From Candidatus Bathyarchaeia archaeon (GTDB lineage: Archaea > Thermoproteota > Bathyarchaeia > Bathyarchaeales > Bathycorpusculaceae): a DNA stretch of 64,000 bases. Made by a program: the position numbers and the translations under genes. Positions within the stretch are counted from its first letter, which is position 1, and each line of letters opens with the position of its first letter. The notes below the pieces were generated by a model that was not told where the DNA came from, did not search any database, and was given only the letters and a program-made list of their open reading frames with translations. Positions 59,388 through 63,104 of the stretch are shown here, piece after piece. The stretch covers positions 124,001 to 188,000 of the forward strand of contig JAVYUU010000003.1 of NCBI GenBank assembly GCA_038728085.1, written 5' to 3'.

Positions 59388-60764
59388 ATGCTAAGCTCCA
59401 GAAGATTGTTTGGAACAAATGGGATTCGAGGAACAGCAAACAGAGAGTTAACTCCAGACCTTGTGGCGAAAATTGGAGCGGCCATAGGCACTTTCTTTAA
59501 ATGCGGAAGACTAATAGTGGGGCATGATGCCAGAACAAGCAGCCCGATGCTTACAAAAGCGGTGATTTCTGGTCTAAACGCCGCAGGCTGCGATGTCATG
59601 TTTACTGGTATGGCCCCAACCCCCGCATTACAGTACGCCGTAAAAAATCATGGGGTGAACGGAGCGGTTATAGTGACGGCCTCCCATAACCCGCCAGAAT
59701 ATAATGGAATAAAAGTCGTGTGGAATGATGGAATAGAAATTTCACGAGAGCAAGAAGTGGAGATTGAAAGCATATTTTTCGAGGGTAGGATACGGTATGC
59801 TGAATGGGATAGGATAGGGGAAACAAAGACCATTCATGGAATCATTGGTGAATACGTGGAGGCTATCAAGAGGCATGTAGACATTGCAAGAATAGCGGGA
59901 AAACGCTACCATGTGGTTATTGACGCGGCAAACAGCGTGGCAGCCCTTGCAGCTCCGAAGCTTTTGAGGGATTTGGGCTGCAAAGTTACAACAATAAACG
60001 CGAATATCGATGGAACATTTCCGACAAGACCGCCGGAACCCCGTCCAGAGAATCTTTCAGAATTGGCTTTGACTGTTAAGGCTTTAAATGCGGATGTGGG
60101 TGTCGCCTTTGACGGGGACGCTGACCGCGCTATTTTTGTCGATGAAACTGGGGAAATCCACTGGGGTGATAAGACCTTCGCCCTCGTTGAGAAACATTTC
60201 TTGATGAAGAATCCGGGTGAAAAAATTGTTTCGCCAATAAGTTCCTCCACGCTGGTTAAGGATATTGCCGAGGCTTATGGCGGAGAGGTTGTTTGGACAA
60301 AAGTTGGAAGCGTAACAGTGTCCCATACCATGAAAAGGCTTAACGCGAAACTGGGAGGGGAAGAGAACGGTGGAATCTTTTACGGGCCCCATCAGGCAGT
60401 TAGGGATGGAGCCATGGCAACAGCCTTGATACTGGACATAATGGCGAACACAAATAAGCCGCTCTCTAAGCTCCTAGGCGAACTCCCAAAATATTACATT
60501 GAGAAGGGCAAAGTGGACTGCCCAAACGAAATTAAGGAAAAGGTTTTGGAGAAACTTATCGAGCAAACAAAGGGACAAAACATAAGCACAATTGACGGGA
60601 TCAAAATATGGTTTGAGGACAAAAGCTCAATTCTAATGAGGCCGAGTGGAACCGAACCCCTTTACAGGCTTTATGCAGAGGCAAAAACGAAGGAGAAAGC
60701 TGAAGAGCTTATTCACGAGTTTAGTCTAAAGCTTAAAAGGATAATTGATAATGTAAAGGGCTAA
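59388..60764 (+). CDS. glmM: phosphoglucosamine mutase / phosphohexomutase (GlmM-like)
   Basis: 458 residues. The catalytic TASHNPPEYNG (Ser near 99), the metal-binding DGDADR and the phosphate-binding RPSGTEPLYRLYAEA are all present. It interconverts hexosamine or hexose 6- and 1-phosphates. It precedes the dehydrogenase-like protein by 19 bases and the Gfo/Idh/MocA enzyme, so UDP-sugar synthesis is the likely context. Confidence 0.9.
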   Translation: MLSSRRLFGTNGIRGTANRELTPDLVAKIGAAIGTFFKCGRLIVGHDARTSSPMLTKAVISGLNAAGCDVMFTGMAPTPALQYAVKNHGVNGAVIVTASHNPPEYNGIKVVWNDGIEISREQEVEIESIFFEGRIRYAEWDRIGETKTIHGIIGEYVEAIKRHVDIARIAGKRYHVVIDAANSVAALAAPKLLRDLGCKVTTINANIDGTFPTRPPEPRPENLSELALTVKALNADVGVAFDGDADRAIFVDETGEIHWGDKTFALVEKHFLMKNPGEKIVSPISSSTLVKDIAEAYGGEVVWTKVGSVTVSHTMKRLNAKLGGEENGGIFYGPHQAVRDGAMATALILDIMANTNKPLSKLLGELPKYYIEKGKVDCPNEIKEKVLEKLIEQTKGQNISTIDGIKIWFEDKSSILMRPSGTEPLYRLYAEAKTKEKAEELIHEFSLKLKRIIDNVKG

Positions 60765-60783: not shown

Positions 60784-62157
60784 ATGTCGCCAACGATGGA
60801 TCCGCCAAGGGCTTTGGAGGAAAAAGGTGCGCATGGAAGCGAGAAAACCACGGTTAGTGTTATTGGATGCGAACGTATCGGCATACTTCACGCATGCCTC
60901 TTAGCGGAGGCGGGATTCAGAGTTTTATGTGTTGACTATGACAGAGCTTTAATTGAGCAAATCTCTAAGGGCAGAGCCCCATTCTTAAATCAGGAGATAG
61001 AGCCCATTCTTCAGAAAGGCTTGGAAAATAAAAAAATACAAGTTTCATGCAGTCTCGAGGAGGCTGCCGGAAATGAGATTATACTGGTTTCAACAGCTGT
61101 TAAAGTGAATGAAAGAGGAGCCGTAGACTACTCGGATATTGAAAGAATATTCAAGAAAGTCGGCTCGCACCTCCGAAAAAACGCGTTAGTTATAAACGTT
61201 AGCACTGTTGGGATAGGCGTTAACGAGGGGATCATCAGGGAAACCATTGAGAACGCATCCGGGTTCAAAGTTGGCGAAGACGTTTATTTTGCATATTGCC
61301 CTGTCCCCCTACCTGAAAAGCAGACATTGAGAAGCTTGGCAAACTGCAGGCGTATTGTAGCAGCGCAAGATAAAGCAAGTTTAGAGAAAGCGTCAAACAT
61401 TATGGCCGCTATAACGAGAGCGGGGTTTGCGAAGTCGTTAGACCTTAAGGCGGCAGAGGCTGCAGTGCTTTTTGAGACTTTATGTAGAAACGTTGATTCA
61501 GCGTTAGCTAACGAGTTCGCTGCCTTTTGTGAGAAGATTGGAGTTGACTATTTGAGTGCCCAGAGTTTAGTGTTTACGAGTGTAGGCAGATTTTCTCAGC
61601 TTGCCTGGGACAGCTTTGGCGGTGAAAAAGCTCTTCCATTACTGTTTGAGGCTGCAGAAACCCAAAATGTTAAACTTAAAATTTCACAGACAGCCCTAGA
61701 GCTAAGCAAGGAGATGGCGAGGCGCATAGTTAGCCTTGTTCAAGATGCATTGAAAAGCTGCGGAAAATCCATCCGCAGGGCGAAAATCGCTGTGCTCGGC
61801 GCTTCCCAAACCCCAAATGTAGCAGATGTTCCCAAGAGTTCATTGAAAGATTTCGTAAAAATGCTTGAAAGGAAGGGGGCCAAGCCAAGCATTTACGACC
61901 CATACCTATCGCAAAAGGTCATAGACCTTGAACCACAATTGATTAAAGAAAACCTTATGGAAGCCCTAGAGGGAGTGGACTGTATAGTGATCTTCACGGG
62001 ACATGAACAATTTAAACGGTTAAATTTAAGAAAAATCAAGCTTTTAGCAAACATGCCAACTGCACTCGTTGACCTTGAGAGGCTTCTGGAGCCCGCGAAA
62101 GTTGAAGCTGAGGGCTTCGTGTATCGTGGTTTAGGAAGAGGTGTTTGGAAAAAATGA
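60784..62157 (+). CDS. UDP-sugar dehydrogenase-like protein lacking catalytic residues
   Basis: 457 residues with the complete three-domain layout of UDP-glucose/UDP-ManNAc dehydrogenases. The NAD motif GxGxxG reads GCERIG (residues 28-33). The AExxK-LFxN segment reads AEAAVLFET (224-232), so Lys and Asn are Val and Thr. The nucleophile motif GGxCxPKD reads GGEKALPL (279-286), without Cys. The YSPER-type segment reads YCPVPLP. The frame is intact, so the protein is probably expressed but not a normal dehydrogenase. It is coupled to the next gene by an ATGA overlap. Confidence 0.85.
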   Translation: MSPTMDPPRALEEKGAHGSEKTTVSVIGCERIGILHACLLAEAGFRVLCVDYDRALIEQISKGRAPFLNQEIEPILQKGLENKKIQVSCSLEEAAGNEIILVSTAVKVNERGAVDYSDIERIFKKVGSHLRKNALVINVSTVGIGVNEGIIRETIENASGFKVGEDVYFAYCPVPLPEKQTLRSLANCRRIVAAQDKASLEKASNIMAAITRAGFAKSLDLKAAEAAVLFETLCRNVDSALANEFAAFCEKIGVDYLSAQSLVFTSVGRFSQLAWDSFGGEKALPLLFEAAETQNVKLKISQTALELSKEMARRIVSLVQDALKSCGKSIRRAKIAVLGASQTPNVADVPKSSLKDFVKMLERKGAKPSIYDPYLSQKVIDLEPQLIKENLMEALEGVDCIVIFTGHEQFKRLNLRKIKLLANMPTALVDLERLLEPAKVEAEGFVYRGLGRGVWKK

Positions 62158-63104
62158 GTGGAAAAATTGGAGTGGCAGTGATCGGGGCCGGTTTTTGGGG
62201 TAAAAACCATGCCAGAGTGTTTAGCGAACTCGAAGAAACAGAGCTTTTGGCGATCTGCGACATCAACGCTGAAAGGGCAAAAAACATTGCTAAGCAGTTC
62301 GACGTCGAGGCTTACGTGGAAGTGGGGAAAATGCTTAAAAGAAAGGACATTGAGGCGGTGAGTGTTTGCACATGGTCCACAAGTCTTGCAAAAGAGGCAA
62401 TGAAGGCGTTAAAAGCTGGAAAACACGTCCTAGTTGAAAAGCCCATGGCAGCAAACTCAAAACAAGCAGAGGCCCTTATAAAAACGGCAGAAAAAGAGGG
62501 CTTACACCTCACAGTGGGATTTTTGATGCGCTTTATCCCGGGTTTACAGTACATTAAGAAAGCTATTGAGGATAAGAGAATAGGCGAACTTGTATGCGCA
62601 ACAGCAAAAAGGGTTTCCCAATGGCCTGAAAGGATAGGCGACGTAGGTGTTGTAAAAGACTTGGCAATCCACGACATCGACGTAGCCCGTTATCTCTTCG
62701 GCGGCGAACCAATCGCTGTTTACGCAAAAACTGGAAACATGAAACATAGACTTTATGAGGATTACGCCCACATAATGCTAACTTTCGAAGGCGGAAAAAA
62801 CGCTTTCATCGAATCCAATTGGCTGACACCATACAAAACACGGACATTAATAGTTACGGGAAGCGAAGCGATAATGAAGCTGGATTATATCACGCAGGAG
62901 CTAACGATAGAGGATGCAAAGGAAACAGTTCAGCCGAGACTTCCATGGCAAGAACCATTAAAACTTGAGCTTCAACACTTTGCAAATTGCATTTTAGGAA
63001 AGGAGAAACCCCTAATAACCGGGGAGGATGGGTTAAGAGCCCTAAGAATAGCTGAAGCTGCATTAAAATCCTCAAAAACCGGGAGACTCGTGAAATTAAA
63101 ATAA
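62154..63104 (+). CDS. Gfo/Idh/MocA-family oxidoreductase
   Basis: About 316 residues from the ATG that overlaps the preceding TGA. VAVIGAGFWGKNHARVF is the NAD-binding motif, VEKPMAANSKQAEALI carries the catalytic Lys (EKP), and DLAIHDIDVARYLFGG the substrate-site Asp/His. Members act on sugars or UDP-sugars (WlbA-like enzymes oxidise UDP-N-acetylglucosaminuronate). The genomic context with GlmM fits a sugar-nucleotide pathway. Confidence 0.88.
   Translation: MSGKIGVAVIGAGFWGKNHARVFSELEETELLAICDINAERAKNIAKQFDVEAYVEVGKMLKRKDIEAVSVCTWSTSLAKEAMKALKAGKHVLVEKPMAANSKQAEALIKTAEKEGLHLTVGFLMRFIPGLQYIKKAIEDKRIGELVCATAKRVSQWPERIGDVGVVKDLAIHDIDVARYLFGGEPIAVYAKTGNMKHRLYEDYAHIMLTFEGGKNAFIESNWLTPYKTRTLIVTGSEAIMKLDYITQELTIEDAKETVQPRLPWQEPLKLELQHFANCILGKEKPLITGEDGLRALRIAEAALKSSKTGRLVKLK

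Follow-up and report, generated by a model that had tools for sequence, protein, structure and literature searches.

The window, the whole analysed stretch of 64,000 nucleotides from a Candidatus Bathyarchaeia archaeon, contains an open reading frame for a 457-residue UDP-sugar dehydrogenase-like protein, here called T, in which the catalytic residues of the enzyme family have been replaced. Its gene is flanked by two others on the same strand:

59388..60764, plus strand: glmM, archaeal phosphoglucosamine mutase, directly upstream of T (TIGR03990 567.8 bits, cut-off 439)
60784..62157, plus strand: T, UDP-sugar dehydrogenase-like putative pseudoenzyme of 457 residues (open frame, TIGR03026 230.8 bits, model pLDDT 89.1, Z-score 40.1 to 4r16_A)
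62154..63104, plus strand: Gfo/Idh/MocA dehydrogenase, UDP-GlcNAc 3-dehydrogenase-like (NF040723 320.8 bits, below the cut-off of 450)

The frame of T starts with ATG and is open throughout, and the C-terminal segment reads IYDPY, in agreement with the first-pass annotation, which described an intact UDP-sugar dehydrogenase homologue with a YDPY segment. T matches TIGR03026, the NDP-sugar dehydrogenase subfamily composed of PF03721, PF00984, and PF03720, over its full length and above the cut-off of 189.8 bits, which is passed by some, not all, of the T proteins from the same taxonomic family. Scores against the equivalog models are far below their cut-offs; NF040825, archaeal UDP-ManNAc dehydrogenase, gives only 157.9 bits against a cut-off of 750, which places T outside this group. 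The N- and C-terminal domains of UDP-glucose dehydrogenase (PF03721 and PF03720) are matched in T. The central domain (PF00984) scores 19.7 bits, below the cut-off of 25.4, and covers positions 2–42 of the 94 in the model; nearly the whole model is covered in a less eroded relative (L140, 69.8 bits), an order-level intermediate that has Lys, Asn, and Asp and no cysteine, and in a class-level relative that contains the active-site cysteine and lysine and no Glu141 (L168, 81.4 bits).

The structure of T was predicted by AlphaFold2 from an input of 81 family sequences, with a pLDDT of 89.1 and a pTM of 0.87. Superposition of the model, proposed earlier as a check of the annotation, identified UDP-N-acetyl-D-mannosamine dehydrogenase from Pyrococcus horikoshii (4r16_A) as the best match among solved structures, with a Z-score of 40.1, an rmsd of 2.4 over 414 residues, 26% sequence identity, and TM-scores of 0.82 and 0.89. 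T thus retains the three-domain fold of NDP-sugar 6-dehydrogenases and shares its overall fold and domain order with 4r16. However, 4r16 retains the glutamate of the PER motif, the lysine and asparagine of KLMEN, and the segment GGHCLPKDP, all of which are missing from T, as are the invariant catalytic residues of the TIGR03026 subfamily. The confidence of the model drops at the former catalytic loop (residues 261–280, block means of 65 and 55), which could be read as disorder; this reading was dropped because the cysteine-containing control L168 shows a dip there too (block means of 60 and 74 for residues 281–300).

A passage of PMC4794789 gives 18 residues that are invariant among 229 NDP-sugar dehydrogenases, together with their roles, and the positions and roles used here follow its numbering of the Streptococcus pyogenes UDPGDH. 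T retains seven of the 18 (Gly7, Gly12, Ser117, Thr118, Pro140, Glu201, and Asn219). Gly9 is replaced by Glu30, Glu141 by Val174, Lys204 by Val228, Asn208 by Thr232, Gly257 and Gly258 by Ser277 and Phe278, Cys260 by Gly280, Asp264 by Ala283, and Lys320 by Thr343; Thr83 and Asn287 are likewise replaced. The altered sites are located as follows:

60865..60882, plus strand: remnant of the GxGxxG NAD motif, G28-C-E-R-I-G33, with Glu30 in place of the second Gly (from the alignment)
61303..61305, plus strand: Val174 at the Glu141 position of the SPER motif (Glu in 0/83 family members and 18/19 canonical sequences)
61465..61467, plus strand: Val228 at the position of the catalytic Lys204 (Lys in 1/85 family members and 19/19 canonical sequences)
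61477..61479, plus strand: Thr232 at the Asn208 position (Asn in 0/85 family members)
61612..61632, plus strand: replaced catalytic loop (GGHCIPKD in canonical enzymes), with Ser277, Phe278, Gly280 at Cys260, and Ala283 at Asp264
61810..61812, plus strand: Thr343 at the position of Lys320, which binds the UDP diphosphate (from the alignment)

The family was counted over 85 sequences, excluding L047 and L059; contig ends truncate at least four of these sequences. Because Asn208, Asp264, Lys320, Thr83, and Ser117 vary even among the 19 canonical sequences (present in 13, 10, 13, 14, and 13, respectively), the most weight is carried by Cys260 (19/19), Lys204 (19/19), and Glu141 (18/19). The claim that the nucleophilic cysteine and the catalytic lysine and asparagine are replaced holds for T, and these losses are common to its family. 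The claim about the second glycine of the NAD motif holds only for the window: T has GCERIG, which no longer fits GxGxxG, whereas the glycine is present in 59/82 family members. The annotation was to be given up if another cysteine and lysine took the catalytic positions; in the alignment, no other cysteine or lysine occupies them. With neither nucleophile nor general base, and without the Lys/Asn pair or the lysine that binds the diphosphate, T should, on the evidence of its sequence, be catalytically inactive in the four-electron oxidation of C6.

The losses form a graded series across relatives. The median number of invariant residues kept is 18 in canonical sequences (range 13–18, n = 19), 14 in class-level relatives (8–16, n = 23), 10 in the rest of the order (4–15, n = 36), and 7 in the family of T (3–10, n = 85). 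Glu141 is missing from all T-like sequences. Cys260 is present in 19/19 canonical sequences, 20/23 class-level relatives, 0/36 sequences from the order, and 1/82 from the family (L044, where it is not within any GGHC motif), and Lys204 in 21/23, 17/36, and 1/85 of the class, order, and family sequences, respectively. Most relatives outside the order thus have the cysteine and the lysine without Glu141; within the order the cysteine is gone and the lysine and asparagine are often retained; in the family of T all are gone. In a tree of 98 sequences (quick IQ-TREE search, SH-aLRT support), one branch (98) separates the canonical sequences from all T-like ones, among which the order together with class families f16 and f17 (97) encloses parts of the order with the family of T, and these enclose the family itself (100). 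A tree of 55 sequences that included other classes of the phylum contains a 29-member clade without Glu141 (97), and inside it a 16-member clade without the cysteine (95). Both trees are quick searches in which several forks are open. Mapped on the tree, Glu141 takes two changes, the cysteine three, and the lysine at least nine, so that the loss of the lysine recurred. The order of loss supported by the trees is Glu141, then Cys260, then Lys204 and Asn208 together with the loop, with some parallel losses. Two other class families (L178 and L184) represent separate cases in which the active-site lysine and cysteine were lost.

The genes around T are packed closely. GlmM ends at 60764, 19 nucleotides before the ATG of T, and the ATG of the Gfo/Idh gene (62154–62156) overlaps the stop codon TGA of T (62155–62157) in a four-nucleotide ATGA, in line with the earlier description of T as lying between GlmM and a Gfo/Idh/MocA gene with stop-start coupling to the latter. 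Among the 85 family loci, counted without the window, the Gfo/Idh gene directly follows T in the same orientation in 81 of the 84 with enough sequence. The overlap is four nucleotides in 51 loci; in 23 others it is recorded as longer, since the start codon chosen there was an earlier one, a choice that the ORF finder also makes in the window. GlmM directly precedes T in 76/78 loci, and a nucleotidyltransferase with hexapeptide repeats (PF00483) is found further upstream in 64/67; the window has no PF00483 gene beside glmM, and three are located elsewhere in the genome. The search for relatives with matching substitutions and neighbours, which the first-pass annotation had suggested, thus found them family-wide. 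Elsewhere in the order, the Gfo/Idh gene is next downstream in 17/35 loci, GlmM is next upstream in 10/34, and the nucleotidyltransferase is found further upstream in 17/28. At class level, the Gfo/Idh gene adjoins the T relative in 5/20 loci and GlmM in 0/22, counts that may be underestimates because the flanks are short (1.5 kb). Since the Gfo/Idh neighbour is already present in these five loci, the linkage may be no more than a gene order passed down from ancestors. GlmM linkage was also considered as a trigger of the lysine loss: the lysine is lost in 40/40 sequences with GlmM upstream and in 9/38 without it, which is suggestive and not significant once kinship is counted (four independent pairs). 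A divergent DUF354 gene (PF04007) is located directly upstream of many cysteine-containing class-level relatives (loci L164–L186).

The site of the Gfo/Idh partner is intact in 79/79 family sequences at Lys, Asp, and His, which we take to be its catalytic residues. UDP-GlcNAc as its substrate is a prediction, because the match to NF040723, the UDP-GlcNAc 3-dehydrogenase model, is below the cut-off. The arrangement resembles that of WbpA and WbpB from Pseudomonas aeruginosa, which presumably belong to the UGD and Gfo/Idh/MocA families, respectively. They act as UDP-GlcNAc 6-dehydrogenase and UDP-GlcNAcA 3-dehydrogenase in a pathway covered by PMC10622841. As at the T locus, a UGD-type 6-dehydrogenase gene lies beside a 3-dehydrogenase gene. 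Unlike that pair, the T locus has a dead WbpA-like member and GlmM in the operon, and we point out a likeness without claiming orthology.

We consider a new, non-catalytic job of T probable, because its active site has been dismantled, yet the gene is kept beside genes of UDP-GlcNAc metabolism in nearly all relatives. The explanation that we favour, with moderate confidence, is that T is a pseudoenzyme that has been neofunctionalised and probably assists the adjacent Gfo/Idh dehydrogenase as a non-catalytic partner. The ancestor of T would have been an active-type UDP-sugar dehydrogenase that lost Glu141 first, the cysteine next, and the lysine and asparagine with the loop last. T, which keeps the three-domain fold, would serve the Gfo/Idh dehydrogenase, whose catalytic residues are intact, whose translation is coupled to that of T, and whose predicted reaction is the oxidation of UDP-GlcNAc at C3; GlmM would presumably supply the same pathway. 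The operon and the conserved central helix of T would also fit a role as a scaffold.

Within the NAD site, the family largely retains the adenosine side (Gly7 in 73/82, Gly9 in 59/82, Gly12 in 79/82, and Asp29 in 79/82 members) and has largely lost the nicotinamide-ribose contacts (Thr83 kept in 6/83, Ser117 in 25/83, and Thr118 in 17/83). This pattern suggests that family members could bind the ADP half without hydride transfer. With Gly7, Gly12, and Asp29 in place, most family T proteins may still bind NAD(H) by its ADP half, and could sense or buffer the dinucleotide, or act merely as a scaffold. T of the window keeps Ser117 and Thr118, and its nucleotide binding is doubtful because Gly9 is missing.

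The same residues bear on an alternative that we regard as unlikely, in which T is an enzyme with a new activity and a relocated active site in the old fold rather than a non-catalytic partner. It would be consistent with the retention of GxGxxG and the NAD-ribose aspartate by most family members, and with the newly fixed C29, C49, K222, E292, N293, K367, and N414. Newly fixed residues speak for the favoured explanation as well; those that are fixed in the family and rare in canonical sequences include C49 (76/82 versus 0/19), E153 (75/82 versus 0/19), N293 (77/85 versus 0/19; Thr in T of the window), K367 (78/85 versus 3/19), and N414 (77/85 versus 3/19). Intermediates within the order have lost the cysteine and still carry Lys, Asn, and Asp, as if a partial reaction had persisted for a while. 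However, the fold places C29 in the Gly-rich loop and C49 at the end of strand beta-2, both presumably on the adenosine side and away from the expected place of C6 of the sugar; C249 and C400 are also common in canonical sequences (11/19 each); and most family members have lost the residues that contact the nicotinamide ribose (Thr83, Ser117, and Thr118). The two cysteines of the adenosine side, C29 (60868–60870) and C49 (60928–60930), occur together in 75/83 family sequences and are not present as a pair in class-level or canonical ones.

A role as a UDP-sugar-binding regulator, one of the functions proposed in the first-pass annotation, appears still less probable; T would then act as a UDP-sugar sensor that controls the enzymes encoded next to it. 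The operon is one of UDP-GlcNAc metabolism, and the C-terminal UDP-binding domain is conserved in the family like the rest of the protein, with a mean of 0.63 against 0.49 in the canonical set, values that are not directly comparable because the sets differ in diversity. Against this role, Lys320, Gly257, Gly258, and Arg327 are gone in nearly all family members: Lys320 is found in 0/36 of those with a residue aligned there (the position is a gap in 49/85), and Gly257 is mostly lost. These four residues contact or frame the UDP-sugar or cofactor in known structures, as stated in a passage of PMC4794789, and their loss weakens the proposal.

That T is a decaying gene without function is very improbable. 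T evolves faster than both of its operon neighbours (median identity to the window proteins 0.37 over 65 sequences for T, 0.70 over 58 for Gfo/Idh, and 0.66 over 56 for GlmM), and the parallel losses of the lysine need at least nine changes, as decay might produce. However, dN/dS between close pairs is 0.06–0.23, well below 1 (NG86; the 25 closest of 62 pairs with more than 72% identity), residues have been newly fixed, and the frame is open across the family except in one copy (L059). T is matched at an E-value of 1e-10 or better in 87 of 90 genomes of the family, one of which (G020, 82% complete) has a canonical-type match only, and in all 53 genomes with a completeness of 90% or more and a contamination of 5% or less. 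A search with the window protein matches 147/162 genomes of the order at 1e-20, and a family-profile search matches 200/256 genomes of the class at 1e-40, some canonical paralogues included. Catalytic residues of the T clade have thus been lost under purifying selection, as expected of pseudoenzymes.

A sequencing or assembly error is refuted as the cause, and we give it practically no credence, because replacements of the same kinds are carried by 84 further orthologues of the family, each from another genome; the relatives with more normal sites belong to other families and orders of the graded series and are not normal orthologues beside an error, the case that would have overturned the annotation. 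The copy with an interrupted frame (L059, G086:C39) has an in-frame TGA and motifs like those of family f6, and adjoins the GlmM and Gfo/Idh genes. A second T copy in G072 (L047:4998-6359) groups with family f4 of the order and may stem from bin contamination or transfer.

The pseudoenzyme reading of T is well supported by the family-wide losses, the lack of a substitute Cys or Lys, purifying selection, and conserved neighbours. A more far-reaching version, which we put forward tentatively, is that T is a core archaeal pseudo-dehydrogenase with traceable losses from an active type, which now serves a UDP-GlcNAc 3-dehydrogenase as an obligate subunit without catalysis of its own, the two being produced in step from overlapping genes. 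If so, the path from enzyme to pseudoenzyme would be visible, stage by stage, in its living relatives. Pseudoenzymes are usually viewed as end points; the T lineage, in a conserved operon with an intact partner, has living relatives at intermediate stages of active-site loss, so that purified proteins from successive branches lend themselves to tests of the sequence of events and of how a new function was gained. For many of these archaeal proteins, the TIGR03026 label "nucleotide sugar dehydrogenase" probably misstates the function, with consequences for the uronic-acid and glycan pathways inferred from it. A literature search, with most subscription papers outside its scope, brought up no description of an inactive NDP-sugar dehydrogenase from these archaea; passages of PMC8318041 mention pseudoenzymes and Bathyarchaeota in general terms only.

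Other UGD-like genes were also considered. A role of T as a regulatory subunit of an active UGD is ruled out in its own genome, because no second full-length homologue was found there; a separate full-length match above 300 bits is present in 30/90 genomes of the family (leaving out L047, the second match of G072). Among the genome contigs, the homologue search returned only distant canonical-type genes from Methylobacter and Methylococcaceae (24–26% identity), which served as outgroup sequences. A shorter UGD-like protein of 297 residues (L032:1438-2331, minus strand; G000:C1 near 98400) contains SPIR and GGHCLIPN, is without the UDP-binding domain, and is encoded next to DUF354-like and glycosyltransferase-like genes. 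Matches of 270–320 residues that resemble it occur in many genomes of the family.
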